From Lucinisca nassula (taxonomy: Eukaryota; Mollusca; Bivalvia; Lucinida; Lucinidae), in NCBI GenBank assembly GCA_963580285.1, contig OY757011.1, forward strand, positions 202,695,644-202,759,643: 64,000 nucleotides of DNA, written 5' to 3'. The notes beneath the pieces were generated by a model, which ran no database searches, was not told the DNA's origin, and saw only the letters and a list, made by a program, of their open reading frames with translations. A program made the translations under genes and the position numbers. How positions within the stretch are numbered: the first letter of the stretch is position 1; each line of letters starts with the position of its first letter. Positions 22,306-49,066 of this stretch are shown here, piece by piece.

Positions 22306-22579
22306 AGACAGAAGACGCCAGGTCAATCCAAGGCCATTGTTAAAAGACAGGTAGGGGTATGTAATAGATTAGCCATAGCATGTCGGGCGCCCTAAACCTT
22401 CAGCATGCAGCTGCTGTAGCATCCCTGGTAGTAGAGGTTTCCTAAATAGATGCATTGGGCGGGTTCGAGCAATTCTAACTAAAACACTTGAAATTATTGA
22501 TGTGTGTGCCAACTACACTAGTATGTTTTTTTTTTTTTAAGTTTAATTATTACATACGCGGGCATACCTGTAGAAACTA

Positions 22580-24530
22580 GAAATTGTTTTTCTACAAAAA
22601 CACAGATGTCTCCCCCTTTTTGATCTCTAAGTATGACCTTGACATTGAAGGTACTGACCTGGGTCTTGTGTGCAACACGTCATCTGATGAAGGTGAACAT
22701 TTCTGCAAAGTAACTTTAAAAAGTCCATCAAGAAATAAGAAAGTTATTGACCGTACACGAAAAAAAGCCCTTTTTTACCTTTGACCTCTAAGTTTGACCT
22801 TGACCTTTGAGGTCTCTTGGATCTTGGGCTTAACACATCGACTCATGATGGTTAACATTTCTGCCAAGTATTTTCATAATCCATCAAAGAATAAGAGTTA
22901 TTGACCTTACACGAAAAAAGAGCCCCTTTTTTACCTTTGACCTCTAAGTATGTTTGCTTATTTGATTTGAGGTTTAACGTCCCCGTCAACAATGTAAAGG
23001 TCATTTTGGAGACGTTGCTTCCAATTTTGTGGGACTTTTACCCGAAATTGAGATGAAATGACATGTCAAGCCCTGCCGCCCAATGAAACCAATGGGGTTT
23101 ATAAGCACGGACGAGCCGACTCGCACCGCTTTGCCTGGGCAAGCTTAGATCCTCTAAGTATGACCTTGACATTGGACGTACGGACCTTGGTCTTGCACAC
23201 GACACATCGTCTAATGAAGATGAGCACTTCTTTAAGGTGACTTTAAAAAGTCCATCCAGAAATAAAAATGTTATTGACAGGACACGAAAAAAGACCCTGT
23301 TTTGACCTTGACCTTTAAGTTTGACCTTGACCTTGGAGGTACAAACCTGGGTCATGCGCGCGCCAAATTGTCTTATGGTTGTTAACATTTCTGTCAAGTA
23401 TTTTCAAATTCCATCAAAAAATAAGAAAGTAATTGGCCGAACACGATAAAAGGCCCTTTTTTACCTTTGTTCAAAGTATGACCTTGACATTGGACATACG
23501 GACCTTGGTCTTGCACACGACACGTCGTCTAATGACGATGAAAATTGCAAGGTTACTTCAAAAGTCTATCCAGAAATAAAAAAGTTATTAACTGGACACC
23601 AAAAAAGACCCTTTTTTGACGTTTGACATTTAAGTTTGACCAACCTGGTTATTGGCCGAACACGAAAAAGGACACTTTTTTGTCAGTTGACCTCTAAGTT
23701 TGCCATTGACCTTTGAGGAAACAACGTGGGTCATGAGCGCGGCAGATCGTCTCATGGTGGTTAACATTTCTATAAGTAATTTCAAAATCTATCTAAAAAG
23801 TTTTGGACCGAACAGTAAAAAGGCCCCTTTTTACCTTTGACCTCTAAGTATGCATTTGACCTTCGCGGTACCAACCTGGGTCATGCTCTTGACACATCGT
23901 CTCTTGGTGGTTAGCATTTGCCAACTAATTTCAAAATCCATCTAAAAAATAAGAAATCTAATGACCAAACACGAAAAAGGTCCTTACATTTGACCTCTAA
24001 GTATGATTTTGACAATTAAGGTACCAACCTGGATCAGGCGCGTGACACATTGTCTTATGTTCGTTAACATTTCTGCCAACGAATTTCAAAATCCATCTAA
24101 AAATAAGAAAGTTATTGACCAAAAACGATAAAAATGCCCTTTTTTACCTTAGACCTCTAGGTATGACCTTGACCATTGAGTTACCGACCTGGGTCAAGAG
24201 CGCGACCGTTCGTCTCATTGTGGTTAACATTTCTGCCAAGTAATTTGAAAATCCATCTAAAAATAATAAAGTTATTGGCCGGGCACGATTTGCCCATATA
24301 TATATGCACGATTTTGTGACCGGTCACAAACTTCAAAGGGTAATAGCACAAAAAGTATAAAAGCTAGAGTTATGGTTCTTGCGCTCAGCACGTCCTCTTA
24401 TGGTGATTTATAGTTATATGAAGTTTCGTGGAGGAGGCTTGAATGGTTTTTAAGTTATAGAGCGGACACGATTTTGTAACAGACAGACGACCCGGGAAAA
24501 AAATGTAACCCCGAAAAGGGGGGAGACATA
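22580..24530 (+). repeat. ~160-bp core-repeat array with tail hairpin (pearl-like)
   Basis: About ten units share TTTGACCTCTAAGTATGACC, GTTAACATTTCTGCCAAGTA, AAAATCCATC and AAGTTATTGACC. The end at 24,475-24,530 has ACAGACAGACGACCCGGG and a hairpin ACCCCGAAAAGGGG. Dense in TGACCT half-sites. The same family occurs at 41,460-45,032. Confidence 0.75.
22950..23160 (-). repeat. SINE-B fragment inside the array
   Basis: TTTGATTTGAGGTTTAACGTC to GCTTAGATCCTCTAAGTATG; the array continues on both sides. Confidence 0.7.
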
Positions 24531-26600: not shown

Positions 26601-27053
26601 TAAACAATACAATACCTAACAATATAATGTAATACAATGCGCACGTGCACATGCACGTAAACATGCATACACGTACTTACATACATTAACGCACAAAACT
26701 GGGAGGTGACTGGTACCGGAAAAGATATTGCTTGAGTTGTGGTTCCGAATATGCAGCACTTGCCAACCTCAAATCGGTGAACAGTCTAACATGAATAGAT
26801 TGTATTTAACTATCTTTGACACGGCGTGTACATAATTCATATCACCAACAATTAGTTCCAAAACAAGTCATGGGTTCTATTTTCTACAAAGGTTGTGTAT
26901 GAAGGTGTCGCTAGGAAGTCATAATCAGAGTTGACTATGTCTTCAAAGCTGGTTTTAGAATGGATCGGATTTGTAATCTTTGCACCCCACCCGGAACACT
27001 GCTGGGTTTGATGATCGTTCCATCAAGGACATGCTTGAATAAAAATCAAAAAT
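26601..27053. other. No recognisable gene
   Basis: Simple ACAT/GCAC-rich stretch near 26,620-26,690, then unique sequence leading into the 383-bp duplication. Confidence 0.45.
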
Positions 27054-27819
27054 GAGTTCCTTTAAGAGCAATGAAAACATTCATAAGAAAGAAGATGGGT
27101 CATACTACGTAGTTTCGGCTAATAAAGCCTCATCAGTGACCCTGATATGATCCGGCAAAGAAAGCCAGAGGAAGCATACTGCAATTTTGCGAATTTCGAA
27201 TAGGCAGTCGATTCAAAGACTGATATAAATCAAAATGGGGTCCAAATAATTAAAAACCTGTCTAGAATATGAGTCTAAACCAACAATTTATTTCCGATTT
27301 CTCAGAATATTCACGCTGATCTCAAAGGAACAAAAGTAAAATATAAACTGCACTATGGTTGATGTACGGGGAGACGTTTTACGGCCGCCACACGGCACAA
27401 CACCAGCTGCAGTGAAGGCAAATAAAAATCAAAAATGAGTTCCTTTAAGAGCAATGAAAACATTCATAAGAAAGAAGATGGGTCATACTACGTAGTTTCG
27501 GCTAATAAAGCCTCATCAGTGACCCTGATATGATCCGGCAAAGAAAGCCAGAGGAAGCATACTGCAATTTTGCGAATTTCGAATAGGCAGTCGATTCAAA
27601 GACTGATATAAATCAAAATGGGGTCCAAATAATTAAAAACCTGTCTAGAATATGAGTCTAAACCAACAATTTATTTCCGATTTCTCAGAATATTCACGCT
27701 GATCTCAAAGGAACAAAAGTAAAATATAAACTGCACTATGGTTGATGTACGGGGAGACGTTTTACGGCCGCCACACGGCACAACACCAGCTGCAGTGAAG
27801 GCAAATAAAAATCAAAAAT
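27054..27819. repeat. 383-bp perfect tandem duplication
   Basis: Two apparently identical 383-bp units (27,054-27,436; 27,437-27,819), each starting GAGTTCCTTTAAGAGCAATG, with the beginning of a third (AATAAAAATCAAAAATGAG). No open frame of note and no hairpin tail. Confidence 0.92.
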
Positions 27820-28469
27820 GAGTCTTGTACTACAGAGAAAACAAAGAAAACAACTGACAAACAAATCATTGCTATGTAAGTTAAGCTGCAGATACACACT
27901 GCATAAGCATGAATTCAAGGCAATCGCGGCATAGTGGGGACAATGCAAAAGTTCGATCCGTCTCCATGTATACCCACTATCTACTGTGTGGAGAATGGCT
28001 GTCACAGACAGGTCACTATAAGCAGGACAGCTACTGGCCAAAACGATTTATGGCAGTTGTTGACCAAAAATACGTATGGAGAATCAAGGGTATATTTTGA
28101 AAGAAAACTGTCCTGTATTTGGGCAGAAATAGATTTGGTGATATTAAACAAAAAAAACAATGATTTGATACATACATGTAGGTATTTTCTGCAAATTTCT
28201 ACTTGTTCTGTGGACGGGTTTGAAAGCTGTGGCTCACAAAAAGGACATGTATTTTTTAAATCCATTTATTTCTGCGGGATTAGGGGTGACCAGCTTCAGA
28301 ACACGGTAACTACATGTGGATGCTTGTCAACATGGCATTTCTTTATTTTTGATTGACACATCGAAGTCCAAACTATAATTCTAGTTTAAATATTTGGGTC
28401 AACGAGAGTTGTGTCAGAATTTCAGGAAAGGCTATAATGGAAGTTTATGTAAAACATTTGCGAGTGCGG
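27820..28469. other. No supported gene
   Basis: Open frames of up to 140 codons exist (for example 27,934-28,356 plus) but without a recognisable domain, with Cys/Phe-rich composition and overlapping frames on the other strand. I treat them as chance. Confidence 0.4.
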
Positions 28470-32367: not shown

Positions 32368-32373
32368 TATGCC
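32368..32373. repeat. Polinton target site duplication, left
   Basis: TATGCC directly before the AG terminus. The partner TATGTC is at 49,061-49,066: five of six bases match. Polintons typically make 6-bp duplications. Confidence 0.75.
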
Positions 32374-32857
32374 AGTAGTAATAGTATGTGCTCTACGAGC
32401 CCCGAAATTTCCGATGCTCATGATGATTTACGTTGCTTGATGCTGGCTCACGCTGATTAACGATGCTTGTGATATTTACGACCTCAAACCTTCGATAAAT
32501 CGATCCTCGCTTGTCATCAGTTTGACACGTCAGGTACTAAGCTTTAGTGTTGACGAGGCTCAACTACGCGAGCCTCTTCGAACTCCCACTTGTCAAAGTG
32601 GTAGAAGACTCGCCTAAAAAATGCCACATCTGTTAGAGGAAGCAGCACGAACGTTTTGTCCTGATCACTCTAGATGTCAAAACAAACTTGTATGATCACT
32701 GGAAATGATCGTAGGCTTCATTACCGCAAATTGTGGGAATCGAACCCGCAGCCCAATCTTTCGAAAGGACTTTCCAGTATATGCTTTATTGGTTCAGCTT
32801 TATTGATCAAACCAGTTTACATACCAAATTACAAACAACAAGCTCATTGAAAGGCAA
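32374..32857. repeat. Polinton left terminal segment
   Basis: Inverse complement of 48,606-49,060. Contains the end of the left protease (stop at 32,807-32,809), AATAAA signals on the minus strand (32,799-804; 32,785-790) and a tRNA T-arm-like GCGGGTTCGATTCCCAC at 32,733-32,749 (minus). The outermost ~400 bp are non-coding. Confidence 0.85.
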
Positions 32858-33237
32858 TTCTAATGCACTTACGTATGTAACGCGACGCCTGATTGGATAA
32901 CGTCAAAAATTTGCGACAGTATATTCTGCGATATACTGTCGGAAACCCGACGACATCATGTAACGTCGCTTTTCATTGGCTGGCATTTGGTTTTACGCAG
33001 CTCACTGCGCTTGCCGCCTTGTGTAAAATAGTACAATTGTTAGCTTAACAACCGAAAATGTGCATTAGAATGGGGATAACTGTACTGAAAATTGTCATTT
33101 GGGGAGGTAAATCGTCGGTTTTACGGTCGCAAATTACGTTTTACGGCTCCGCTAGCGCGTCGCCGTAAAACGAAATTTCCGACCGTAAAACCTCCGATTT
33201 ACCTCCCCAAATGACAAATTTCAGTACAGTTATCCCC
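32858..33237. mobile_element. Fold-back insertion in the Polinton left arm
   Basis: Two adjoining palindromic units. 32,858-33,070: ATTCTAATGCAC ... GTGCATTAGAAT with an inner GCGACAGTATA / TATACTGTCGG. 33,072-33,237: GGGGATAACTGTACTGAAA ... TTTCAGTACAGTTATCCCC with ~74-bp near-perfect arms and a CGCTAGCG-containing tip. The right arm lacks all of it (joins AAGGCAA to GTTATTGACAT on the matching strand), so it is a later insertion. Confidence 0.8.
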
Positions 33238-33347
33238 TAAGTTATTGACATTTAGCTTGTTCAGGATGCTCTTCATGCTGTCTCCTCTTAGTCCTCGAAG
33301 CCCGTAATAAACGCTAAAATATGTTGTAATCCTGATACCTGAAAATA

Positions 33348-33674
33348 TTAACCCTTCACTTGCTGAATATTCATTTTAGCATTTAACATGTGAGTACAGA
33401 GATATGAGCTGCCAAAAAGGTTTAATTCCCCATTATAAGTTTGTGGGAATTCTAACTTGCATTAACCATTATCTTGATGAATATTCAATTTAGCCACACC
33501 CATTTCTGACTTTGAACCACTCAGATTACTCGATGTAATTTATTCCTACAAATTCATAAACTAAATGTCAAACAGTGTAGATCCTGATCAGATGGCTTCT
33601 TCAGAAGCCATCTGATCTGGATCTACACTGTTTGCAAAGATAGGGGTTGTCGTGAACAGCAAGATAAGGGTTAA
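33348..33674. mobile_element. piggyBac-like MITE, copy D, in the protease
   Basis: Bounded by TTAA at 33,348 and 33,671 with CCCTT ends; an inner TTAACCATTATCTTG (33,462) starts the unit most like copy A, so the left ~110 bp may be a duplicated end. The right arm has an uninterrupted GTTAAC at this place, proving insertion at TTAA. Confidence 0.82.
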
Positions 33675-33930
33675 ATACATAGCCCCTCCCAGATGATATC
33701 AGCCAGGTGCGACAATAACTTCGATGGTATTCAGGTCTTCGATCTAGCGGGTCGAAGAATTCTATGGGGCCCCCTGATCGGAACGAACATTGCTACCCAA
33801 TGGGACCCGCGTTCACCACTCTCGTCCGCATTAAGAACAATAAGTTTACGCGTGTCGTATCCAAACCAACAAATGGAATCGGCTGGATGTGCCACACCGA
33901 CTGCTCGCGATATTTATGAATCTACAGAAT

Positions 33931-34400
33931 TCATCTAACTCGTACTTCCCTCGACGCATCAGTGCTCACCAAGCCCAGGAAATGCGCGTAGCACACAAAG
34001 GTTATGGCTCCTGGAAGAGGTTTAGCAAATTTGATTTCCAACCGAGTGTGACCTTTTTTTAGACAAAGGTAAATAATGTTGCTCGGCGTACGGAGTTACA
34101 CAGACAGCGTAGAAAGTATAACCCGAGTTGAAATCTTAATTAAGCAGTTAGGTTTGTGGTCAAGGTCCAGACTTCGATAGCTGCTAACGAATTGTTTGTT
34201 TTCGTTATTGGGTTTGTAAGTTACCGACGAAAATGGCCTTCCATCAACGTATAGAGCTATGAAATTGCAGCCATAGTGTGCAAAGTTATAAGGGTTCCTG
34301 GTGTAGCTCGGAATAAAAGCCTCCGAGGAACCAAGTCAACCACCAGTTTATCCAGGATTTCGCCCTGAAATGTATCAATACTTACGCTTGTATCGTTTTC
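33931..34400 (-). pseudogene. Polinton capsid protein, C-terminal part, left arm
   Basis: C-terminal portion of the protein family often annotated in animal genomes as 'F54H12.2-like', which I take as the Polinton major (double jelly-roll) capsid protein. Visible in successive frames: TFQGEILDKLVV, LYVDGRPFSS, RLEIKFAKPLP and TDASREVRVR before the stop. At least two frameshifts. The N-terminal half is absent: upstream sequence goes straight into polymerase sequence at about 34,390-34,410, and this joint is open in frame. The stop overlaps the protease start. Not functional. Confidence 0.72.
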
Positions 34401-35204
34401 GATTTCGTTCGAGTTATTCGAGTCATCATCAATGGAAACGCTTTGCTCTAACTTCGATAGGAGCCTGCTTAATTCTTGTGAAATGTACTTCCATTTTGTT
34501 TAGCTAGATTATAAGCCTTTGTTTGAATTTGGCTCATGTATTGTAACATGTCGTGAACCAGAATGTGTGAATCAGAATTGACAAAGCATTTTGATATATC
34601 AAAAGAAGGGACGTTGATACACACAGATACACTTACGGGAAAATGTTTAGTTTGCTAGTGCACATTCTGACCAGCGGATCAGAACCGCTTCTGCATCATA
34701 CACCCGGAACCAGGGATAGCAACCGTTTTCTGTCCAAATGCCAGCCTCGCGAAGAAAGCAAAACACAGATTTCTTTGTTGTGTGAAACCCCGCAGGATAT
34801 GCAAAATCTGTCTAGTCTTTGCACGTATTTTGATGACGCTTGCACGAAAAAGCGCCTGGTCAGATTTTGTGACAGACTATGAACTGAAATTTTCCAGAGT
34901 ATTGATCGAAATTGTGAATAAAGATAATGTTGTTTCCGCAAAAATTTGATCGCATTGTCTCTTTGTTTAACCCACTAGAACGGTTAACCTTCATCGTCAA
35001 GCGAAAAAAAAAACCCTGTACATTAACCTTGAAGAAAGACTCAAATTCATGCATGTCTTCTTGCAACATAATACCTTGTGACGGCTCTTCTGTTTGATTC
35101 TTTTCCATCCATTCTTTTAAGAACGGTTTGCAGTTTTTTCCAAATTAGTGAATTACCCATATGAAGCAGCGAAAAGCGCAAAGATTATCTTGATATATAT
35201 GACC

Positions 35205-35270
<66 letters not shown>

Positions 35271-36600
35271 ATTGTTATTATTATTTTTCTTTTGTTTGTT
35301 ACTGACAAGCGAATAAATGGCTTTGTGTTTTTAATGTATTAAGCACAGATTGCCAAAGGTTTCCTAACAAAGATCTAGTTTTGTAAACTGTAAAACACAC
35401 ATTTGTCAAAAGTTCAACTAACCATTTAGTATCAGGACGTTGCTGCATTAATTCTTCAATGAGATCAATACTTCTAAATGTAATCAGCAGACTTTTTAAG
35501 TCTGACTGCCGCGAAATATGAATCGGGTTTTGGAAAATTCCCTGATTTTCTAAGGGGCGAAACTGTCTTAGTTCGTTACTTTCTGTGTGTCTCAAATTCA
35601 AATTCAGTTTAAAGGCGAAAGTTTGGCGGTTATAAACCTGATTTTCAAAGTTCATAAGTTGATCTATACTGACATTGTTGCTCAACGGAAAATTCACATT
35701 CTATTTGACCCTCTCTGTATCTTTCAAGGATTATGGGTCTGTTTATCCGATAAATGGTTCGGAGGGCTTCATCTACATGCACCTGCCCATGTCTTATCCA
35801 CGGTCCCTGTTCGTCAATATAAACATCTTCATGCAAGCCACCCTCTCCTATTTCGGGATGTGTTCGAGTTTTTGGGCAGCCATAAGGGGATCTGTTCGGA
35901 AATTGACTTTGACAAATCCTGCAATTATAAACGCAAGATCTTGAAGGGCGTTGCTGACTACTGTTTGCGGGGTTTTCTTCATTATCATCAGGGATGGTGT
36001 GATTCTCAGGAGGGTGTTCGGGAATATCTAGGAGATGATGTTTGAGTTTATGAGCAGCCAAAAGGGGGTTGTTCGGAAACTGATTTTGACAAGTCATGCA
36101 CGTATAAACGTTGGAATTTGAATGAAGGACGTTGTCGACTTCTGCTTGTGAGGTTTTCTGCATTTTCATTAGGGAGGGGCTGATTGATAGGTGGATGTTC
36201 GGGTTCATCTAGTCATTTTCTGCAAACTGTTTTATGTTGATACAATTCCCTCCTATCTCCTACTGTAGTTTTGCAAATCTGAAAAGTAATTTTGTTTGAA
36301 TTGTTCTTATGGTGAGGAGAGGAGATTTTTTTAGCCCCGCAGACGATGAAAATGCTTTGCCGCAGTCATGGCAAGCATATCCATTTTTGAAGACCCCATA
36401 CACCCCACCATGTGTCTCGTGAGATTAGATGGGGTACTGAAGATCTTTCCGCATTCGCACGCATATCTCACGTTTTCTTGTATGGACTTATTGTGTCGTG
36501 AAAGGTCGCTTTTAAAAGCAAACGTGGCACTGCATTTTTCGCAAGTATACCTCGCTTTTTAACTTTTTTCTCCCGCACCTGTCATTGAGTGCGATTGGGT
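34400..36600 (-). pseudogene. Polinton protein-primed DNA polymerase B, N-terminal part, left arm
   Basis: N-terminal third of a Polinton pPolB. From 36,600 leftwards: C2H2-type fingers (YTCEKCSATF; YACECGKIFS; CMTCQNQF with HKLKHH; CRICQSQF), a linker with ELMQQRPDTKWLVELLTN, DNLCAFRC, LQEDMHEFESFFKVNV, the FIHNFDQYSGKFQ and CHKI zinc-ribbon-like block, then remnants of the exonuclease I region and KWKYISQELSRLLSKLEQ before the joint with capsid sequence. Polymerase palm motifs are missing. A (GT)n tract at 35,204-35,270 interrupts the frame; several frameshifts. In intact elements this enzyme copies the linear genome from a protein primer. Confidence 0.75.
35204..35270. repeat. (GT)n microsatellite inside the polymerase remnant
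   Basis: About 33 GT units; the right-arm copy lacks it at the same codon position (39,205-39,235). Confidence 0.95.
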
Positions 36601-36636
36601 TTGAGTGGGGTTTAACTGACCTATACCGAGCGATTC

Positions 36637-36864
36637 CTAATAATTATTTTGAGGCTCAACAATGCCAATATCGCATGCAACAGCCAAACTTTCTGCTTCA
36701 CCATCACATGCTGAGTGGCGTTGTGGCGTTTCGCCCACTGCACAATGGCATGCAAATCCCTTAAGTTTTCGATTATCAAATTCGCCTAGTGTAGCAAGTT
36801 TTGCGCGAATGCGTGCATCTCCCATCATGTCAAATTCGTTAGCCCAAGTTTTCAATTCGGTCAA
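36637..36864 (-). pseudogene. Unrecognised 75-codon frame in the Polinton loop
   Basis: ATG-to-stop frame beginning MTELKTWANEFDMMGDARIR and including FACHC and a later His. It lies between zinc-finger blocks of the left-arm polymerase gene and beside the reverse transcriptase fragment. May be a further finger segment or chance; function unknown. Confidence 0.3.
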
Positions 36865-37620
36865 ATGCTGATGTCATAAAGATGCTGGAAAATCTAATTG
36901 ACAATATTTTCGTGGAGTTCGATGGCTTAGTGTTTCAACAAGCGGTTGGCATGCCGGTGGGTGCTGGTTGTGCATCGTTGCTAGCCGGGTTTTTCTTGTG
37001 CTCGAATCGTGCGGAGTTTGTACAAAGTCTCCTTACAGCAACCTCCTCCCCATTCTTGGATTGTTGTCTCTGTATTGGCAACGGGAGGCTTGCTACTAGG
37101 CTGTACGATAAACGAGATGACTTCAATTTTCCCATTGTTAACTTTCCCTTCCTGAGTAGTAATATCCCGTCTGCACCAGCATATGGAGTTTACGTTTCAC
37201 AGTTAATCCGTTATGCTAGAGCCTGTTCCAAGTATCAGGACTTGGAACGTGTGAAGGTGCTCACTGCCAGGTTGTTATGCCAGAGGTATCAAAAAACCAA
37301 ACTGGCATCAACACTAAAGAAGTTCTATGGGAGGCACCATGATCTTCTTGATCCGTACAATGTGGCCATTTCAAGAATTATTTCTGATGTGTTTGCCAAT
37401 AGAAAGACATAGGAAGACTTCCAAAATCTCGGACATACCCTTTTCGGCATTTACTCCCTTTCTTCGTTCAGGTCGATAGGCATGGTGGGCGAAGCTTGCT
37501 TACCTAGTAACGCTTACTGTTTGTTCTAGGACGCCTGATTACACTCTTCTGGAGTCCATGTCTGTTGGTCTGAACATTGATATTTGCTATTTGTCTACGG
37601 ATTAATGATTTTGGATTAAC
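36864..37620 (+). pseudogene. Reverse transcriptase fragment (Penelope-like type)
   Basis: Open frame 36,882-37,412 (176 codons) after an in-frame SNADVIKMLE. LIDNIFVEFDGLVFQQAVGM, PVGAGCASLLAG (RT palm-block context with the P-x-G turn), then NGRLATRLYDKRDDFNF, NFPFLSSNIPSAPAYGVYVS and LIRYARACSKYQ. This set is common in mollusc and other animal RTs that I place, tentatively, with Penelope-like elements. The block that should hold the catalytic Y-x-DD lies between VQSLL and LDCCLCIG and is deleted, so no activity. It interrupts the acidic/zinc-finger end of the Polinton left-arm gene. The Ala for Thr/Asn changes in PVGAGCA are also atypical. Confidence 0.65.
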
Positions 37621-37649
37621 GCTTATATACTACGACCTTAATCACTCAA

Positions 37650-38221
37650 ATCCTTCAAATGCTCTAAAGCAAACTTCACAGTGTTTCTCTGAGGGGTTGG
37701 GACTGATCTTGAGAAGAATGGGTTTGTGAGCCTAAACAAAACAGGCTTAAAATGCATAGGTCTGGGTCAAAGAGGCTTGACGCTATTTGCGCCATCACAT
37801 TTTCATGGATATTCATGCTCCACATGGTCATCTTGATAGAGTATAAGGAACATTTTCCGTCGTGAGAACCGTGTTGCGCGTTATTAGGTCGCTGGGAGAT
37901 GTTAGAATGAGGAGAACCGCTGCACGCATCTTGTAGAGGAGCTGGCGAATTAGATGGGCCATCAGAGGTTTACTTCGGGATGTTTTCAGTGGCGTGTTGT
38001 AGAAAAAGTTGGGTTTCAGCATGCATGAGTACGCTATCGCCGTCGTCATCAAAATCCTGATCGACGTGCATGGAGGTGTCAACATTATCATTGTCTATGT
38101 CCATTGCGAGTTCCCCATCATCATAATCATTGGAGAAAGAGGGGGAGGGGTTTGAACTCGGGTCGTGATCTATCATCATCGTGTCTGCATGAAGCGAAAC
38201 TTCATCGTCGCTATCCGACAT
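37650..38221 (-). pseudogene. Acidic N-terminus and zinc-finger remnant of the Polinton polymerase gene
   Basis: Starts MSDSDDEVSLHADTMM at 38,221; the 83-codon frame is strongly Asp-rich (DYDDGELAMDIDNDN) and ends in IPK. About 200 bases further, HCEVCFRAFEGFE resembles a C2H2 half. Same strand as the left polymerase remnant and directly upstream once the RT fragment is removed, so probably the true beginning of that gene. The right arm has no counterpart. Confidence 0.5.
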
Positions 38222-38365
38222 AATGAGGCCGGCATCAGCGTCAGATAATTGTTTCGTCAGATAATCTATTTGTTACAAGAGGGTGATTGGGAAGGCTGTT
38301 GCGTTCAGCCCAGCTTTTGAACCTCCTAGCTGGTTGAAAGAGAGCGGAACTGAGTGATATTCAGT

Positions 38366-39293
38366 ACCTCATCTAATCTCTCGGTACACAGGGTGGGGTG
38401 TATGGGGTCTTCAGAAAATGGGTATGCTTGCCATGACTGCGGCAATGTATTTTCATCGACGGCAGGGCTAAAAAGCACTCATCTTCTCACCATAAGAACA
38501 ATTAAAACAAAATTACTTGTCATATTTGCAAAACTACAGTAGGAAATAGGAGGGAATTGTATCAACATGAAAAACGTTTGCAGAAAATGACTAGATGAAC
38601 CCTGGCACCCACCTATCAATCAGTCCCTCCCTAATTGAAAATGCAGAAAACCTCGCAAGCAGTAGTTGACAACGTCCTTCAAATTCCAACGTTTATACGT
38701 GCATGACTTGTCAATTTCCGAACAGGCTCCTTTTGGCTGTTCATACCGAACCGTTTATCGGGTCAACAGACCCATAATCCTTTAAAGATACAGAGAGGGT
38801 CAAACAGAAACAGTTTATAATTTTCCGATAAGCAACAATGTCAGTATAGATCAACATTTTAACTTTGTATATCAAGTTTATAACCGCCAAACTTCTGCCT
38901 TTAAACGGAATTTGAATGTAGGATATATTTTCAGATACCGAGAAACGAACTGAGACACTTTCGCCCCTTTGAAAATCAGGGAATATTCCAAAACCCGATT
39001 TACAGTTCGCGGCGGTCAGACCTCAAAAGACGGCTGATTAAACTTAGAAGTATTGATCTCATTGAAGAATTAATGCAGCAACGTCCTGATACTTTTGAAG
39101 AATGTGCATTTTACAGTTAACAAAACTAGATTTTTGTTAGGAAACCCTGACCAGACTGTACCGGAATACATTAAAAAACACAAGCCATTTATTCGCCTAT
39201 CAGTAACAAAAAAGCAGGTCATATATATAAAGATAATCTTTGCGCTTTTCGCTGCCTTGAGCTTCACAGAGGTTATTCACTAACAGATTTAGA
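38366..39293 (+). pseudogene. Polinton polymerase N-terminal part, right arm (proximal)
   Basis: Mirror copy of 35,170-36,435. YACHDCGNVFSSTAGL finger, CMTCQF block, LMQQRPDTF, then FIRLSVTK and DNLCAFRCLELHRGYSLTD. Broken by frameshifts; it stops where the 6.2 kb repeat block is inserted (about 39,293). Compared with the left arm, it lacks the (GT)n tract, so parts of the DNLCAFRC frame are better preserved here. Confidence 0.72.
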
Positions 39294-39498
39294 TCAAAGC
39301 ACTGAGACAGTAATGATGGGGCGTAGCTTTGATAATTTGATAACGTTAGGCAAATTTAGCGTTTGATTGGTATTTTAAATCAGGCTCATATAGATCCAAT
39401 GAACATATCTGTTTGAAGCTGTTCTGGGCCAGAAGTCGTGTTAAAGCAACAAGACATATATTGAAAATAACTCACGCTAAGGTGTAGACCCGCAACAA

Positions 39499-39757
39499 CC
39501 ATCACGAAAACACGCCTGTACAAATGCATTGTCAATTTTCCGGCAAAAATGGAAATTTTAAGATACAAAACTTGGTATTTTTTAATCTCTGCTCAAAACA
39601 TTGATTGCGGGGACTTGATTGATTCGCCTGGACGAGGCAGTTTTATAAAGTACCCACAATCAATGTTTTTGCGCAATATAGCAACCATGCAGTTCTACAG
39701 TTTATTATACCCCCACAAATGAAATTTTGGGGGGGGGGGGGGGGGTATATAGGAGTG
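39499..39757. mobile_element. PAL-MITE type A, decayed
   Basis: CATCACGAAAACACGCC at left; hairpin GCGGGGACTTGATTG degenerate; the right end merges into a TATACCCCC ... GGGGGTATA hairpin at 39,709-39,753 that starts the next array. Confidence 0.6.
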
Positions 39758-41010
39758 AGCTTGTCGGTCTGTCGGTCGGTCGGTCTGTTGACTTGGTTTC
39801 CAGATGATAACTCAAAAAGCGCTTCACCGATTTTTATAATTTTTGATACACTGATGTAACATCATAAAATACAGGTCAAGTTCGATTTCCACTACAATTC
39901 GTCAATTTTCGACATAGTTATGGCCCCTTTCAAGTGAAAAAATTGCAAAATGCCGCTGTTGTACTATCAAGGCAGTTTTTGTGGGGGTATTCATCACCTT
40001 TAGTGATAGCTCTAGTTTGAAGATTTCTGCTGAGCTATAGTTCGTGCAATAACTGTGGCTTGCGCAATTGTTGGGCGGCTTTAAAGTTATTTTAAGTAAT
40101 CAAGTTTTGAAAAATTACCTCGGTGAGGTTATTTATCTTGCATTAGACATTCTCCTTGGTTACGTCTTGATGATGTTTATCTTCATGTGAAAAAGTATCA
40201 TTATTTTCCCAGCAGTTTATAAGTTATACATCCGTAATCAGTCTTTAAAATTGCCTCGGTGAGGCTGTTTATAAAGCTATCTGGCATTAGACAATATCAT
40301 TAGCTTGATCTTGTCAATTTACATCTTCATGCAAAACATTTTAAAAATATACCTGTCGGTTTGAAAGTTATACGACCGTGTCAGTGGGTGAATTTTTTAC
40401 CTTGCCGAGGCTAAAATAAAGAAATTGGGCATTCAGGAATCTCGTTGGTTAGATCTGTACATTATCTATCTACATGCTAACAGTTGTCAAAATATTCCAA
40501 GTAGATTAGAAGTTACACTTCGAAATAATTTTTCAAACAATTCGGCTAGGCGAGGCCGTTTGTAAATTAATTTGGCATAAGGCAATTTCGCGGGTTCAAA
40601 GCCGGGTTTAGATGTTAAACTACGTATTCATTTTTTTATATTATTTTGCCTCGGCGAGGCCATTCATAGAGTAATCTTGCATAAAACAGCCTCATGGGTT
40701 AGATATTGTCAATATCAATCCGAATGCCCAAAATGATCGGAATATTCAGAGAGGTTTGAACATTATACTCTGTTAACATTTTTCTAAATATATATTGCAT
40801 CGGCGAGGCCATTAATGAAGTTATCTTGCATAGTACGACAGTTTCTTGGGTTAGTTATTGTCAATATCAATCCATAGGAATATTTGAAGAGGTTTAGACA
40901 TTATACTCCGTTATCATTATATAAAAATAAATTACCTCGACGAGACCATTTATGAAATGATCTGGCATTAAGGCAATTTCTTTGGTGAGGTTTTGTCAAT
41001 AAAGCACAGT
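39720..41010 (-). repeat. Core-repeat array with leading hairpin and GTCGGTCT tract
   Basis: Reverse-oriented relative of the pearl-like arrays: hairpin with a G tract, then GTCGGTCTGTCGGTCGGTCG, then ~125-130-bp units with CCTCGGCGAGGC, TTATCTTGCAT and GTCAATAT. A similar GACAGACAGAC plus TATACCCCC hairpin is at 62,540-62,613. Confidence 0.6.
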
Positions 41011-42383
41011 GCACAGTCTTTTACCGGAAACCAACAACTGCCCTTCTTGAAAAAGCGAAAGGGATAGAATCACTGTGGAACAGATTTCATGATCAATCTC
41101 CTGGAAAGAATGTTGCCGATCCCGGCAGGTATCGAACTTGAGTATGAGCTGATAATTTGCTTTCTTTATGGTCACAGGCCTAGGATGCAGACATGTCGCA
41201 TTAAACAAAGTAACATTGTCCCCACCCCCCAACCCCATTCACGCATACTCTGAGTATATGTCTAGCAGCCCTTTTAGGGGACAAACATAGCAGACCCAGA
41301 TCAGATGCTACAAAAATTGCCGTCTCATCTGTGTTTAAACTGCAAAATTTACTGCTTACAATATAAGCCGTGTTCCTTAAAATTTGACGTGCACCTGTCC
41401 AAACTCATTGACTCGATGATTCCAACTGTCTTATTTTGGTAAATGAAACAAAGAACTAGAATTTGTTTTTTCTACAAAAACACAGATGTCTCCCCCGTTT
41501 TTGACCTCTAAGTATGACCTTGACATTGGAGGTATTGAGCTGGGTCTTGTGTGCAACACATCATCTAATGAAGATGAACATTTCTGCAAAGTAACTTTCA
41601 AAATGTTCATAGAGAAATAAAAAAGTTATTGGCCGTACACAAAAAAGCCCTTTTTTACCTTTGACCTCTAAGTATGGCCTTGACCTTTGAGGTACAACAC
41701 ATCGTCTCATGATGGTTAACATTTCTGCCAAGTAATTTCATAATCCATCAAAGAATAAGGAAGTTATTGACTGTCCCTTTTTTCACCTTTACCTCTAGGT
41801 ATGACCTTGACATTGGAGGTATGGACCTTGGTCTTGCACATGACTCATGGTCTAATGACGGTGAACATTTCTGCCTGGTTACTTTATGAAGTCCATCCAG
41901 AAATAAAAAAAGTTATTGACTGGACACACACACAAAAAAAAACTTTTTTACTTCTGACCTCTTAGTATGACCTTGATCTTGGAGGTACCGACCACAGTCT
42001 AGCGTGCACCACATCGTATCATGATGGTTAACATATCTGCCAAGTAATTTCACAATCTATCCAGAAATAGGAGTTATTGACTGAACACTAAAAAAGGCCC
42101 CTTTTGGTCCTTTGACCTCTTAGTACGACCTTGACATTTGAAGTACCAACTTGGGTCATGCACGCAACACATTGTCTCATGGTGGTTAACATTTCTGCCA
42201 AGTAATTTCAAAATCCATCTAAAAATAAGAAAGTTATTGACAGAACACAAAAAGGCCCCTTTTTTACCTTTAACCTCTATGTATGACCTTGACCTGTCAG
42301 GTACCAAGCTGGGTCATGCGTGCAACATATCATCTCACGGTGGTTAACATTTCTGCCAAGCAATTTCAAAATCCATCTAAAAA

Positions 42384-43906
42384 CAAGAGTTGTCAGAAGA
42401 CAACATAGCTCGCCTTTGGGGGCCTATGATGGATGAGGGCAAGTTTCTAAAAAACAGCCACAGTGACCTTGACCTTCAGCCCCTGACCCGGAAACTCAAA
42501 GTCACTCAAGATATCATCATACCAAACATTTGTGTCAAGTTATATTAAAATCCATCAATAAATGAAGGTGCAAGAGCGATGACAAAGTTTTTCTAAAAAT
42601 AGCCACAGTGACCTTGACCTTCAGCCCCAGACCCTGAAAGTCGATCTCACTCGAGATATCATCATACCAAACATTTGTGTAAAGTTATATTAAAATCCAT
42701 CCATAAATGTAGGCACTAGAGCGATCACAAAGTTTTTCAAAAAATAGCCACAGTGACCTTGACCTTCAGCCCCTGACCCTGAAAGTCGAACTCCCTCGAG
42801 ATATCATCGTACCCAACATTTGTGTAAAGTTGTATTAAAATCCATCCATAAATGTAGGCACTACAGTGATCACAAAGTGTTTTTATAAAAATTGCCAAAG
42901 TGACCTTGACCTTCAGCCCAGGAACCTGAAAGTCAAAGTCACTCGAGATATCATCATACCCAATATTTGTGTGATGTTATATTAAAATCCATCCATAATT
43001 AAAGGCGCAAGAGCGATGAAAAAGATTTTCTAAAAATAGCCACAGTGACCTTGACCTTTAGCCCCAGACCCTGAAAGTCGTATCCGCTCGAGATATCATC
43101 ATACCCAAAATTCGTGTGAAGTTATATTAAAATCCATCCATAAATGTAGGCACTAGAGCGATCACAAAGTGTTTTTGAAAAATAGCCACAATGACCTTTA
43201 CCTTCAGCCCCAGACCCTGAAAGTCGAACTTGCTAGAGAAATCATCATACCCAACATTTGTGTGAAGTTATATTAAAATCCATCAATAAATTAAGGTGCA
43301 AGAGCGGTGACAATGTTTTTCTAAAAATAGCCACAGTGACCTTGACCCCGTGACCCTGAAAGTAGTTACCTTGACCTTAAGCCCCGGTCCCTGAAAGTCA
43401 AAGTCACTCGAGATACCATTATACCCAAGTTATATTAAAATCCATCAATAAATGAAGGCGCTAGAGCGATGACAATGTTTTTCTAAAAATAGCCACAGTG
43501 ACCTTGACCTTGATCCCCAGACCCGCTGTTTTTAAAAAAAAATAAAAAATAGAAAAAGAAAAGAAAGAATAAACATGCCATCCCCGGAATTTGAACTCAC
43601 GCAGCTTGCAGGTAAACTTTAACACAGGATTTCAAGGGAGGTAATACAGAGGAAAATATTAACTTCTCAAAAAGTCCAATTTAAGCAAAAAAACCCTGAA
43701 AAATGAAGTACAATGATAATGTTAAATATTTTTTTTACCAATTGTTAATTATATATTCAAAATAAACTTGTAAAACATCACATATAATAGCTTGCAGGTA
43801 AACTTTAACCAAATGCGGACGCCGACGCCGACGCTGACACCGACGCTGACGACGGACGCCCGGGGGTATGGAAATAGCTCCCCCTTACTTTCGTAAGGCG
43901 AGCTAA
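42384..43906 (+). mobile_element. Helitron-like non-autonomous insertion
   Basis: 1,523-bp insertion inside a known repeat unit: the unit normally reads ATCTAAAAATAAGAAAG; here CTAAAAA is followed by CAAGAGTTGTCAG and the unit resumes as TAAGAAAG. No bases are duplicated and the target is A|T. The 5' end has the hairpin GTTGTC/GACAAC; the 3' end has a hairpin CCTTAC / GTAAGG and terminates GCTAA before T. The body has about eight ~140-bp units (GTGACCTTGACCTTCAGCCC, GATATCATCATACC) and a GACGCCGACGC tract. Fits a rolling-circle (Helitron/HINE) insertion. Confidence 0.68.
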
Positions 43907-44149
43907 TAAGAAAGTTATTTACCAAACACGAAAAAGGCCCCTATTTGACCTTTGACCTCTATGTATGACCTTGACATTTGAGCTACCTAACTGAATCATG
44001 CATGCAACACATTGTCTCATGATAGTTAACATTTTTGCCGAGTAACTTCAAATTCTATCTAAAAATAAGCAAGTTATTGACAAAACCCGAAAAAGGCCCC
44101 TTTTTTACCTTTTTACCTCTAAGTATGACCTTGACCTTTGAGGCGAGGG

Positions 44150-44502
44150 AGCAGTTACTGTGTTTGGGCGATTCGGTTGTGTTGGCATTTACATGCTAAC
44201 TGTAGGGTTAGGACAAATGGTTTCCAGGGTCGCCTTTAGTCCTAGCCTCTCCTAGCAGGTCAATGTTGTCACAACCGCGTACCCCAACACAGTATTTAGC
44301 TCAAACATACCGTGCTTCTATTGAAATTTCATTATAATCTATAACCACATACATACATACATACATACATACATACATACATACATACATACATACATAC
44401 ATACATACCGGAGACCGAATATAATGTATATAAATTACACGGTATGTAAAAAAAGATGGGGTCGGATAGGGGAGGAGGCGCCGACCAAAAAAAAAAAAAA
44501 CC
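44150..44502 (+). mobile_element. Insertion with (ATAC)n and poly-A end
   Basis: Interrupts the array between CTTTGAGG and CCAACCTGGG. Contains a 60-base (ATAC)n tract (44,347-44,406) and ends in A13; possibly a retroposed sequence. No coding content or known family recognised. Confidence 0.5.
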
Positions 44503-45538
44503 AACCTGGGTCATGCATCCAACACACTGTCTTATATTGGTTAACATTTCTGCCAAGTGATTTCAAAATCCATCTTAAAGTAAGAAAGTTATTGACCAAA
44601 CACGAAAAAAGGCCCCTTTTTTGACCTTTGACCTCTAAGTATGACCTTGACCTTTGAGGTACCGACCTGCCTCATGCGCAACAAACATTTTCTCATGGTT
44701 GTTAATATTTCTGCCAAGTTATTTCAAAATCCATCTGAAAATAAGAAAGTTATTGACCATACACGATTTGCCCATACATATATACATACCGACAAACTTC
44801 CAAGGGAGATAATTCAAAAATTATAAATGCGAGAGTTATAGTTCTTGTGCACTGCACGTCGTCTAATGCTGATTAATATTTATATGAAGTTTCGTGAAGA
44901 TAGCTCGAACGATTTTCAAGTTATAGAGCGGATACGAATGTGTGACAGACGGACAGACAGACAGACGGACAGACAGACGCCCGGGGGAAAAACAATATGT
45001 CTCTCCGAAAAAACAAAATTCGGAGGAGACATAATTACATTATCGACCCACACTGCATACTTTTAACCCATTTTAAACGAATGGAATCCTCAATGGAATG
45101 AGTTCATTTTAAAATCAGGGATGTCAGGATGTGGCTTCCACGAAATATTTGGCGAAATGACTGAACATTTTGTAAGTATGCAGTGTAGGTCATAATGAGG
45201 CTCCGCGTTCTGTGGTATCTGATCTGGGTTTGTCCTATTTGCCAGTTGCCAGGTTTGGGATTTTACGGTACAAAATTGGCTGTAAACTGGGTTATATGAA
45301 CTGAAATATAAAAAGATTAGACTGCAACACAGTTCATCTATTAAAAATATTTATCTATTCCGTTTGAAATAGGTGGTCTGTGAAGCAGTCTATAAGAAGA
45401 TACGCATGGCGTAATAATCTACTTTGTTTACACGGGGCTCTATATTCTCACTGGTGATTAGGTCATACGCAGTAACTCCAAAAGTAGTGTCGAAATCACT
45501 TCTTATTTCACTGGAGCTACGCTGCAAGAGCTAAGCTC

Positions 45539-45612
45539 CAAAAAACCTGCAAAACTGTTCTTCACAGAAAGGATGTAAAAGAAACAAACAGAAGAGCCGT
45601 TTCAAGGTATTA
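45539..45612 (+). pseudogene. Polinton polymerase fragment, right arm (middle)
   Basis: Matches the left arm (35,050-35,120, minus), including AAACAAACAGAAGAGCCGT and CAAGGTATTAT. It is cut at 45,612 by the mariner TA site and continues at 46,937. Confidence 0.75.
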
Positions 45613-45614
45613 TA

Positions 45615-46934
45615 CGAGGACTGTTCAAATATGAATGCAACTAATCACATAAAAAATGATTCCGTGATAGGTTTCGATGAAAAATTTATTTTGTACCCTC
45701 AACGTATTCCCCTTTAACAGATGTACAAACTTTCAGTCTTCTGTTCAAATCATTGAATGAATTTTGGTAGTTTTTTCGAGGTATACTATGAAGGCACTGG
45801 AATATTGCAGAACCGAGGTGTTTGCGCTGTACAAATTTTCGACCAGAAAGGTATTTTTTCAGCCGCGGGAACAAAAAAAGTCACACGGGGCAAGGTCAGG
45901 GGAATACGGGGGGTGATGGAGTTCAACAACATTTTCCTGCTTCAGATAGTCTTGCACAATGAACGCCTTGTGCGATGACGCATTGTCATGTAGCAATCTG
46001 ACATTGGCCAAACCAGTTGCGGGGCTTCGTTCTTTGAAATATTTCTTCAATTTTCGAAGAACTTTATTCTTGTAAAACTTCGCATTTACAGATTTGCCTT
46101 TAGGCACAGCAACCTGAATAGCAGGGCCCTGATTTGAAAAGAATATGGCATGCATTACCTTTTTGACGCTCATGGTCCGCTTTTGCAATACTTTGTTGCC
46201 CATATTTTGTTCTGAATCTTTCGTTTTGGCTAAAAATAGTGAACCCATGTCTCGTCACCTGTAACGACATTAGCGAAAGACCGTGCATTGTAATTTGGAA
46301 ACTTTTTAAGCAACTTCTTGGCGCACTGAACGCGTGTCTTTTTCTGCTCATCTGTCAACAGATGGGGAATCCATCTAGCACAATCTTTCTCATTTTCAAA
46401 TCCCGTTTCAGAACTGTATGAGCTGCTCCTAATGAGATGCCAACCATACTAGCTATTTGCCTAGTGGTGTATGGTGCATCGGTAGCAACTATTTCTTTCA
46501 CTCTAGCAACCATCTTGGCAGATGTTGCTCTTTTCGGCCGACGATCATGTGGTGCATCGTCTAATGAGCCTAGCCCACAGCTGAATTTCTTACACCAACG
46601 AAAAACTGTCGAAAAAGACATTTCATTATGCCCATAAACCGAACATATTTTATCAAAAATGTCTTTGCAACGTATACCAAGAATACAACTATTCTTAATA
46701 TAGGACCGTATTTCAACGGCGTACTCTGACCTTCCAACCATGTTTTGTATTAGTATACAAGAGTAGACAGTGTTTATCGAACGATATACACTGCTAAAGT
46801 GCACGGATTTTAACAGGTTTGGTATCAGTGTATAGGTAAAATGTTTTTCTATGCTGTGACATTTATTTCTAGGTGATTTTCGCATTAGTGCATGAGAAAA
46901 CGTTCTACTTGCATTCATATTTGTACAGTCCTCG
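45615..46934 (-). mobile_element. mariner transposon, 1,320 bp
   Basis: Inverted ends CGAGGACTGTTCAAATATG and the inverse CATATTTGTACAGTCCTCG; TA duplicated at 45,613-14 and 46,935-36. Length and ends fit the mariner family. The Polinton left arm gives the empty site (GGTATTATGTTGCAAGAAG versus GGTATTATA[...]TATTGCAAGAAG), confirming exact boundaries. Confidence 0.92.
45686..46741 (-). pseudogene. mariner transposase (DD34D), inactive
   Basis: Cut-and-paste transposase of about 350 codons, starting MVGRSEYAVEIRSYIKN at 46,741. N-terminal helix-turn-helix region with FSTVFRWCKKF, AT-hook-like linker DRRPKRAT, second HTH RQIASMVGISLGAAH. Catalytic triad: TGDETWVH (first Asp, ~46,255), HDNASSH (second Asp), and YSPDLAPCDFF (third Asp) with exactly 34 residues between the second and third, the mariner spacing. 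Broken by frameshifts near 46,350 and 45,870 and by an in-frame TAG shortly after the first Asp (~46,230). C-terminal end KGEYVEGTK. Family assignment is secure; activity is not possible in this copy. Confidence 0.92.
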
Positions 46935-46936
46935 TA

Positions 46937-47741
46937 TTGCAAGAAGACATGCATGAATTTTTTGGCTTGACTCGAACCGTTTACCGTTCTAGAGGGTTAA
47001 AGAAAGAGACACCGCGATTAAATCTATGTGGGAACCACCTTAGCTTCATTCATAATTTCGATGAACACTCTCGAAATTTTCAGTGCATAGTCTGTCACAA
47101 AATTTGGCCAAGCGCTTTTTTCGTGCAAGCATCATCAACGACTAGACAAAATTTGTGTATCTTTGGGGGGGGGGGGGGGTGGTTCATACGCCACAGAAAT
47201 CTGTTTGACTTTCTGCGCGAGGTTGGCATTCGGTCAGAAAATGTTTGCTATCCCCGGTCTCTGGTGTATGATGTAGAAGCGGTTCAGCCCCGCTTAGAAA
47301 TTGACACAGGTCAGCTTTTTTCGTGCAAGCATCATCAACGACTAGACAAAATTTGTGTATCTTTGGGTGTGGGGGAGGGGGGGGGGGGTTCATACGCCAC
47401 AGAAATCTGTTTGACTTTCTTCGCGAGGTTGGCATTCGGTCAGAAAATGTTTGCTATCCCCGGTCTCTGGTGTATGATGTAGAAGCGGTTCAGCCCCGCT
47501 TAGAAATTGACACAGGTCAGAATTTGTCGTATCAAACTAAACATTTTCCCTTCTTTTGAAATTCCAAAATGCTTTGTTACTTCTGATTCGCACATTCTGA
47601 TCCACGACATTTTACAATACATGAGCCAAATTCAAACAAAGGCTTACAATCTAGCTAAAGAAAAACGGAAGTAGATTACACAAGAATAAAGCAGGCTCCT
47701 ATCGGAGTTAGAGCAAAGCGTTCCCTGACCCGAACGAAAAC
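46937..47741 (+). pseudogene. Polinton polymerase fragment, right arm (distal, exonuclease region)
   Basis: LQEDMHEFF, then SRGLKKETPRLNLCGNHLSF, FIHNFDEHSRNFQCIVCHK (zinc-ribbon-like), RHRNLFDFLREVGIRSENVC and LVYDVEAV. The YDVEA corresponds to the 3'-5' exonuclease I motif (D-x-E) of protein-primed PolBs. After it, PKCFVTSDSHILIHDILQYM and QTKAYNLAKEKRK complete the retained part; palm motifs are absent and the sequence passes into capsid coding at about 47,742. Contains a 200-bp tandem duplication and G tracts that shift the frame. Confidence 0.78.
47114..47520 (+). repeat. 200-bp tandem duplication over the exonuclease I segment
   Basis: GCTTTTTTCGTGCAAGCATC starts at 47,114 and again at 47,314; each copy includes the G-tract and the YDVEAV codons. 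Only in the right arm. Confidence 0.9.
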
Positions 47742-48220
47742 AAAAACGATACAAGCTGTAAGTATTGATGATATATTTCAGGGCGAAATCCCTGATAAAC
47801 TGATGGTTGGCTTGGTCTCCTCGGAGGCTTTTAGTGGGAGCTACACCAGGAACCCTCTATCTCTGCACACTATGGCTGCAATTTGATATATCTGTATGTT
47901 GATGGATAGTCATTTCCGTCGGTGCCTTACGAACCCAATAACGACAACAAACAATTTGTTAGCATCTATCGAATTCTGGGCCTTGACAACAAACCTAACT
48001 GCTGAATTGTTAAGAAAGATTTCAACTCGGGTTATACAATCTACGTGTTCAATATAACTCCGTACGTCGAGCAACATTGTTAACCTTTGTTAAAAAAAGT
48101 CACACTCTGTTGGAAATCAAATTTGCTTAACCTCTTCCAGAAGCCATAACCGTTGTGTGCAACGCGCATTTTCCAGGTCTGATGAGCATTGATGCGTCGA
48201 GGAAAGTACGAGTGAGATGA
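47742..48220 (+). pseudogene. Polinton capsid protein, C-terminal part, right arm
   Basis: Mirror of 33,931-34,400. VSIDDIFQGEIPDKLMVGLV, SSEAFSGSYTRNP, LYVDG, RLEIKFA, then PLPEAITVVCNAHFPG and SIDASRKVRVR before the stop at 48,218. One stop inside (KFA then TAA) and frameshifts near 47,870 and 47,900. Retains only the last ~150 residues of a protein normally several hundred long. The stop overlaps the protease ATG as ATGA (48,217-48,220). Confidence 0.75.
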
Positions 48221-48654
48221 ATTCTGTAGATTTTAACAGCCTTTTTCATAAATATTGCCAGCAGCGGGGTGGGGCACATCAAGCCGATTTCATTTGTTGG
48301 TTTGGATACGACACGCGTAAACACATTGTTCTTAATGCGGACGAGAGTTGTGAACGTGGGTCCCATTGGGTAGCAGTGTTCGTTCCGATCAGGGGTGGGG
48401 GGGGGGGGGGCATATACCCGCTAGTTCGAAAGCCTGAATACTATCGAAGTTATTTCCAGACCTGGACGGGGCTATGTAGTTAACTTTTCAGATATCAAGA
48501 TTACAATTCCTCAACAAGCGGACATTTTTGCGTTTATTACGGGCTTCGACAACTACGAGAAGACAGCATGAACAAAATCCTGAACCGGCTAGATGTCAAT
48601 AACTTGCCTTACAATGAGCTTGTTGTTTGTAACTTTGTATGTAAACTGGTTTGA
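48217..48654 (+). pseudogene. Polinton adenain-like cysteine protease, right arm
   Basis: Best copy of the protease. MNSVDFNSLFHKYC start, FGYDTRKHIVLNADES, ERGSHWVAVFVPIRG (His of the catalytic triad), a G-tract that shifts the frame, then YVVNFSDIKI, and in the original frame SGHFCVYYGLRQL with the nucleophile Cys, followed by EDSMNKILNRLDVNNLP and CNFVCKLV to the stop at 48,652-48,654. Two AATAAA signals follow (48,657; 48,671). About 145 codons, a little short for the family, and inactive because of at least two frameshifts. Confidence 0.85.
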
Positions 48655-49060
48655 TCAATAAAGCTGAACCAATAAAGCATATACTGGCAAGTCCTTGCGA
48701 AAGCTTAGGCTGTGGGTTCGATTCCCACAATTTGCGGTAATGAAGCCTACGATCATTTCCGGTGATTATACAAGTTTGTTTTGACATCTAGAGTGCTAAG
48801 GACTAAACGTTCGTGCTGCTTCCTTAAGATGTGGAAATTTTCAGGCGAGTGTGAGTTCGTAGAGGGTCGCATAGTTGATCCTCGTCAACACTAAGGACCT
48901 GTCAAACTGATGGCAAGTGAGGATCGATTTATCGAAGGTTTGAGGTCGTAAATGTCATAAGCATCAAGCATCGTTAATCAGCGGGAGCCAGCATCAAGCA
49001 TCGTTAATCATCATGAGCATCGGAAATTTCGGGGCTCGTAGAGCACATACTATTACTACT
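48606..49060. repeat. Polinton right terminal segment
   Basis: Inverse complement of the left terminus, roughly 90% identical by eye. Includes the protease tail, polyadenylation signals and a perfect T-arm-like hairpin GTGGGTTCGATTCCCAC (48,712-48,728). Confidence 0.85.
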
Positions 49061-49066
49061 TATGTC
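49061..49066. repeat. Polinton target site duplication, right
   Basis: TATGTC immediately after the CT terminus; pairs with TATGCC at 32,368. Confidence 0.75.

Follow-up and report, generated by a model that had tools for sequence, protein, structure and literature searches.

A palindromic, internally deleted Polinton in the bivalve Lucinisca nassula, integrated in one event and probably formed by snap-back during protein-primed replication

The 64,000-nucleotide stretch of the Lucinisca nassula genome analyzed here (C2:202695644-202759643 of the 2.93-Gb assembly, hereafter the window) contains at positions 32374-49060 an element derived from a Polinton (Maverick), the arms of which are mirror images of each other. 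The right Polinton end is found on both sides, and each arm reads, from the outside inwards, right end, protease, capsid residues about 270-426, polymerase (about codon 410 to codon 1) and zinc fingers (Table 1). An earlier note, made by a model from the letters of the window, had described identical termini in opposite orientation, a hexamer outside each of them and inverted homology continuing inwards through protease, capsid and polymerase coding sequence, and had proposed an integrated Polinton analogue of defective palindromic viral genomes. Termini and hexamers proved to be as described, and the inward homology is borne out by an arm-versus-arm alignment. The element is palindromic, internally deleted and inserted as one unit, as seen from a deletion junction common to both arms, a fold-back point and uninterrupted copies of the insertion site; snap-back of a replicating strand is the best reading that we can infer for its origin.

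Both ends carry Polinton-type terminal inverted repeats of the AG/AGT-repeat kind, with the same 15 bp, AGTAGTAATAGTATG, at 32374 (+) and 49060 (-). An (AGT)2 motif is given for vertebrate Maverick ends in a survey (PMC8097293). The arms differ by 12.6% (353 differences in 2,809 aligned columns), and with kilobases of collinear inverted homology in the alignment chance is not at issue. Later insertions have lengthened the left arm to 4.07 kb; once all insertions are subtracted, which is arithmetic only, the native element comes to about 7.5 kb, with about 3.3 kb in each arm and about 1.1 kb in the loop. The 3.3 kb of shared DNA per arm that had been estimated before agrees with this native length, but the palindrome reaches further in than described, to 36445 and 38356. 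The true loop between these points (36446-38355) is composed of about 1.1 kb of native sequence and a 0.78-kb dispersed repeat resembling reverse transcriptase (RT) sequence. The 6.25-kb block in the right arm is a later insertion, since a decayed relative (C13, 128.26-128.28 Mb) is continuous at this point: positions 39208-39293 and 45541-45613 map to adjoining bases, 39293 and 45541 both to L031:7108. Inside this block lies a tandem array with units of about 155-160 bp (41454-44766), which is related to another array at 22575-24488 of the window.

The search for a full-length relative led to C9:131832902-131852353, a Polinton of 19.45 kb with terminal repeats of about 0.2 kb and an ordinary layout: left end, zinc fingers, polymerase, ATPase-like gene, integrase, capsid, protease and right end, with all genes co-directional. 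Its polymerase matches PF03175, its integrase PF00665 together with a chromodomain, and its zinc fingers zf-C2H2; the name of the ATPase-like gene is tentative and comes from a weak match to PF13173 below the cut-off (E 0.0047). Two closer relatives, with one copy of the polymerase region each, are located at C13 128.26 Mb and inside C13:19658272-19708924.

No complete gene is seen in the window element, and Pfam and NCBIfam named none of the submitted open reading frames of the window as Polinton proteins, so that the identification rests on the relatives and on the capsid fold. The 426-residue protein adjoining the protease is likely a double jelly-roll major capsid protein: the structural model of a 90%-identical homologue (predicted local distance difference test 90.5) matches double jelly-roll proteins of Singapore grouper iridovirus, PBCV-1, Sputnik and mavirus. 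Named relatives of this capsid protein come from Pinctada, Saccostrea, a Solemya symbiont record and Lytechinus. The label of the protease is weaker and is taken from matches of the relatives' protein to PF03290 below the threshold (E 0.1 and 0.051) and from its place beside the capsid gene. The polymerase is present in two copies of its N-terminal part only; homology from residue 374 out to the junction at about codon 410 was established via the DNA of the C13 relative, and the region corresponding to the PF03175 match of the C9 homologue (residues 490-711) is missing. No integrase match was obtained in the window at E 1e-4, PF00665 being present in the relatives, and the element is therefore filed as a defective derivative and not as an autonomous Polinton.

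Table 1. Features of the palindromic element and its insertion site, in window coordinates
Feature	Position	Strand	Evidence
Left target-site duplication, TATGCC	32368-32373		Flank sequence and uninterrupted paralogues
Left arm (right Polinton end, protease, capsid C-terminal part, polymerase N-terminal part, zinc fingers; genes on minus strand)	32374-36445	+	Arm-versus-arm alignment, relatives
Terminal and subterminal repeat, left copy (6-8% different from right copy)	32374-32855	+	Arm alignment
Later insertion, left arm, 383 bp, partly hairpin repeat	32856-33238		Arm alignment
Protease-like remnant, left arm	33229-33892	-	tblastn with protease-like protein of relative
Later insertion, left arm, 324 bp, holds dispersed repeat	33346-33669		Arm alignment
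Likely major capsid protein remnant, left arm (about residues 270-426 of 426-residue relative)	33934-34393	-	tblastn; fold of homologue
Polymerase-capsid deletion junction, left arm	34386-34393	-	Alignment to relatives
Polymerase remnant, left arm	34386-35655	-	C9 protein residues 1-374 align; DNA homology to relative reaches about codon 410
Zinc-finger region upstream of polymerase, left arm, extending into loop	36231-36558	-	Relative match; zf-C2H2 in relative
Native loop part 1, left arm continued towards left Polinton end	36446-36866	+	Relatives
Later insertion in loop, RT-like dispersed repeat	36867-37641	+	Absent from both relatives; many genomic copies
Native loop part 2	37642-38355	+	Relatives; homology to both stops at 38352 (fold-back point)
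Right arm, inner part, mirror of 35144-36445	38356-39288	-	Arm-versus-arm alignment
Zinc-finger region, right arm	38357-38574	+	Relative match
Polymerase remnant, right arm, loop side of later insert	38864-39288	+	Relatives
Later insertion(s), right arm, 6.25 kb with tandem arrays	39289-45535		Opposite 35144 of left arm; relative continuous there
Right arm, outer part, mirror of 32374-35144	45536-49060	-	Arm-versus-arm alignment
Later insertion, right arm, mariner-type transposon, 1.32 kb	45615-46936	-	Arm alignment
Polymerase remnant, right arm, outer side of later insert and mariner	46964-47756	+	Relatives
Polymerase-capsid deletion junction, right arm	47749-47756	+	Alignment to relatives
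Likely major capsid protein remnant, right arm (about residues 270-426)	47749-48217	+	tblastn
Protease-like remnant, right arm	48217-48651	+	tblastn with protease-like protein of relative
Terminal and subterminal repeat, right copy	48606-49060	-	Arm alignment
Right target-site duplication, TATGTC	49061-49066		Flank sequence and uninterrupted paralogues

The element sits inside a dispersed repeat, and its flanks are contiguous in uninterrupted copies of this repeat. When the joined flanks, with the hexamer once, were used as a genome query, 38 of the 43 listed matches crossed the join (best 40 of 3,396 candidates scored); of the five that do not cross it, two correspond to the flanks in the window itself and three are confined to one side. 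Here as in the other whole-genome searches only the best candidates were scored, and counts are lower bounds. In four fetched uninterrupted copies the sequence passes through the insertion site without a gap, and the hexamer at this site is TATGCC or TATGTC in three of the four aligned paralogues and AGTGCC in the fourth. The target-site duplication of the element measures 6 bp with five of six positions alike (TATGCC versus TATGTC), and exact 6-bp duplications flank all five other elements checked (C17, two on C13, C7 and C3). The uninterrupted copies with their contiguous flanks mean that the outer hexamers flank one insertion: the whole palindrome entered the chromosome in a single event.

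These observations bear on three other explanations. The hexamers could have stemmed from two separate insertions, a case that the earlier note had named as speaking against its proposal, and nested and neighbouring insertions are indeed common in the window. That two Polintons inserted head to head nearby and were then joined by a deletion is nevertheless highly improbable, as the contiguous flanks refute it for the outer ends and both arms have the same internal deletion. It is very unlikely, too, that a normal Polinton became palindromic after its insertion via chromosomal inverted duplication or gene conversion. Fold-back inverted duplications in chromosomes are described in two studies (PMC10622511; PMC7467729), but such an event would not produce exact element termini on both outer sides, enclosed by a single target duplication in a repeat that is otherwise intact, and it would have to recur in three further elements, C7, C17 and C3, all of which have exact duplications. 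Palindromes are also a known assembly hazard. A folded read was rejected for the window element on account of the 12.6% arm divergence and the insertions private to each arm, and the different flanks joined by a target duplication leave such an artefact a negligible chance.

The internal deletion is the same in both arms: polymerase codon ~410 is fused to capsid codon ~270, with AGC common to both parental sequences at the junction. A junction query gave four matches in the genome, and only the two window arms contain the fusion, the remaining matches covering the polymerase side only in one case and the capsid side only in the other. A capsid/protease query gave three matches, namely the two window arms and C13:89.59. 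From the shared junction, the simplest reading would be that both arms descend from one internally deleted genome and that the deletion preceded the palindrome. At the other end of the arms, both C13 relatives follow the window loop to 38352, where homology stops while the relatives themselves run on, and at 38356 the window sequence reverses into the zinc-finger region. This asymmetric turn leaves a single-copy loop of about 1.1 kb, which in the two relatives continues towards the left end.

Protein-primed, strand-displacing replication begins at the ends of linear genomes, as in adenovirus and phi29-type systems. The window element, with the right end on both sides and arms that mirror each other, has a snap-back type of anatomy, and it probably arose by snap-back during the protein-primed copying of the deleted genome near its far end. 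Synthesis would have begun at the right end, crossed the deletion and proceeded to a position upstream of the zinc fingers; the 3' end of this strand would then have primed anew within the zinc-finger region and been extended back to the right end, yielding a product with two identical origin-bearing ends, both usable as origins. Polymerase and integrase from intact relatives would replicate and insert this mirror genome in trans. With no integrase match, no catalytic part of the polymerase and no complete gene, the element would be helper-dependent.

Several points weigh against this proposal. The element is known from its integrated sequence alone, from which we infer the replication step, and no clear microhomology is present at the turn, where the relatives are 11-22% diverged and at most about two bases are arguable. 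The same sequence would therefore be given by the joining of two linear genomes with the same deletion, broken near the left end at different places and fused head to head before integration. Such joining accounts for the asymmetric loop and for the shared deletion, tolerates the scant microhomology and suits arms that are as far from each other as from the relatives and are not settled as sisters. We nevertheless consider it rather unlikely, because it requires two breaks and one join versus a single template switch, and because the occurrence of long inverted arms in four elements points, without excluding joining, to a process that is part of replication.

The relationship of the arms is the next point of concern for snap-back. 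An unrooted split of the polymerase part (777 columns) places both arms against both relatives at 16 sites, versus 0 and 1 for the alternatives. Judged against the distant C9 copy, 5 of these sites are derived in the arms, 8 in the relatives and 3 are undecided, and two other roots are favoured by 4 and 6 sites, respectively, versus 5 for sister arms. The approximately unbiased (AU) test on the rooted polymerase part gave 0.762 for sister arms versus 0.225 and 0.307, with a clade support of 61%; the capsid/protease part with a distant outgroup gave 0.853 versus 0.148 and 0.149, the best yet a non-significant result. Three-way site counts with one outsider were 38, 52 and 18 (698 columns) and 91, 73 and 66 (1,395 columns), and the divergence between the arms about equals that between arms and relatives. 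The unrooted split is in keeping with arms copied from one parent molecule, as is the shared deletion. The alignments thus do not settle whether the arms are sisters, and their common descent rests on the shared deletion junction.

A last difficulty concerns timing. Divergence between the arms is 6.9% in the outermost 448 columns versus 13.6% elsewhere (p = 3.5e-5), a pattern that a palindrome integrating as soon as it had formed would not show. Relative to C13:89.59, 16 differences are common to both arms and 10 are private in the terminal 184 columns, whereas 18 shared and 90 private differences are found in 698 capsid/protease columns. The elements on C17 and C7 have the same trend at a non-significant level, and C3 is without substitutions to test. 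One reading is that the palindrome replicated for some time after its formation, during which its ends were kept similar; the lower outer divergence could also be due to two parents whose arms already differed, to constraint acting differently on the ends or to conversion between the ends.

Long inverted arms are found in other Polintons of this genome. Among the eight elements with both ends located, four are long-armed and four short-armed, a count that is no frequency, as C3 came to light via a C7 arm query and the sample is thereby biased towards palindromes; C1:74.07 and C13:8.05, for which one end was located, are not counted. The elements on C7, C17 and C3 have inverted arms of at least 2.3 kb, each within an exact 6-bp duplication. 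The arms of C7:38902569-38920460 (4.67 kb, 11 of 4,673 columns different) contain the right end with the protease, and those of C17:48251580-48269905 (2.5 kb, 23 of 2,515) the left end of a C13-like element, a protease fragment and dispersed repeats. C3:47046424-47063146 has a left-type end and arms without a difference in 2,346 columns, apart from 35 gap columns (2.4 kb fetched). Terminal repeats of about 0.2 kb characterize C13:89590954-89601351, C13:19658272-19708924, C9:131.8 and C9:24.5. The arms of C7, C17 and C3 may be long for other reasons.

The palindromes of C3 and C7 have arm sequence in common (85-87%). The 3.67-kb non-Polinton part of the C7 arms was considered as captured host DNA, an idea that was abandoned as much of it also occurs in C3, in inverted pairs. 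About 3 kb with short tandem units (L017 1382-4310) is located in the arms of both elements and is found in part at C13:123449584-123453162 and C5:89071641-89073494.

It is conceivable, though we put this forward tentatively and as something short of probable, that Polintons in this genome keep making symmetric genomes from either end, and that these are themselves mobile and helper-replicated before they integrate, which would make them both a satellite class of animal Polintons and a fossil record of protein-primed linear replication. The less diverged outermost 448 columns and the arm sequence common to C3 and C7 would fit a palindrome that outlives its formation.

Other elements related to Polintons were noted in the genome. 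The 50-kb element at C13:19658272-19708924, with Polinton ends and an exact 6-bp duplication, has ATPase-like sequence 0.4-1.0 kb from one end and holds inverted units of about 0.65-0.69 kb, some with RT-like sequence. In the Polinton at C9:24.52 Mb (L019 1444-6537) the capsid-protease segment forms near-identical tandem repeats, with two full and one partial stretch of both capsid and protease. The copy at C13:8.05 Mb (L036 3529-6182) is another internally deleted Polinton, in which ATPase-like sequence is separated by a short distance from the C-terminal residues of the capsid protein, with a protease match over the full length thereafter; the RT-like dispersed repeat is also present beside it. 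Elsewhere in the window, near-perfect tandem duplications are present at 9395-10238 (420-bp unit, 99%) and 27038-27823 (383-bp unit, 100%).

The vertebrate Polinton/Maverick survey (PMC8097293) describes AGT-repeat termini and 6-bp target duplications like those found here, and a protease beside the major capsid protein, where the window element has its protease-like remnants. Intact vertebrate Mavericks are given there as 12.7-24.6 kb long with terminal repeats of 46-1,447 bp (mean 402), whereas the native inverted arms of the window element, about 3.3 kb each, make up most of its ~7.5 kb. Like Polinton/Mavericks, the relatives of the element encode a family B polymerase and a retroviral-type integrase. 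Mirror-image derivatives exist for adenovirus 12 and for yeast linear plasmids. These are the symmetric recombinants (SYREC) of adenovirus 12 and the pGKL1-derived F1/F2 of yeast linear killer plasmids. SYREC resembles the window element in the inverted duplication of one end of a linear, protein-primed genome, but is particle-borne with host DNA in its arms, whereas the window element is integrated and its arms are all Polinton sequence except for later insertions. F1/F2 is likewise an internally truncated mirror derivative of a protein-primed replicon, but belongs to a cytoplasmic plasmid that is not known to carry capsid genes or to integrate. Snap-back or copy-back defective interfering genomes also combine an internal deletion with one end duplicated as a mirror; they are best known from RNA viruses and parvoviruses, in contrast to a double-stranded DNA element fossilised in a chromosome. 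The earlier note knew of no described family with this layout, and in a literature search with most subscription journals outside its coverage, hence weak evidence of absence, no published palindromic Polinton was found.

So far, the replication of Polintons has been argued from gene content. A mirror-image genome and three younger long-armed elements are what linear, end-initiated, strand-displacing replication would leave. The inverted-arm signature can be counted in any genome, and the defective genomes of a virus-like element would be available as fossils that can be dated. If it is true that the palindromes replicate with helpers, Polintons would have satellites of their own.

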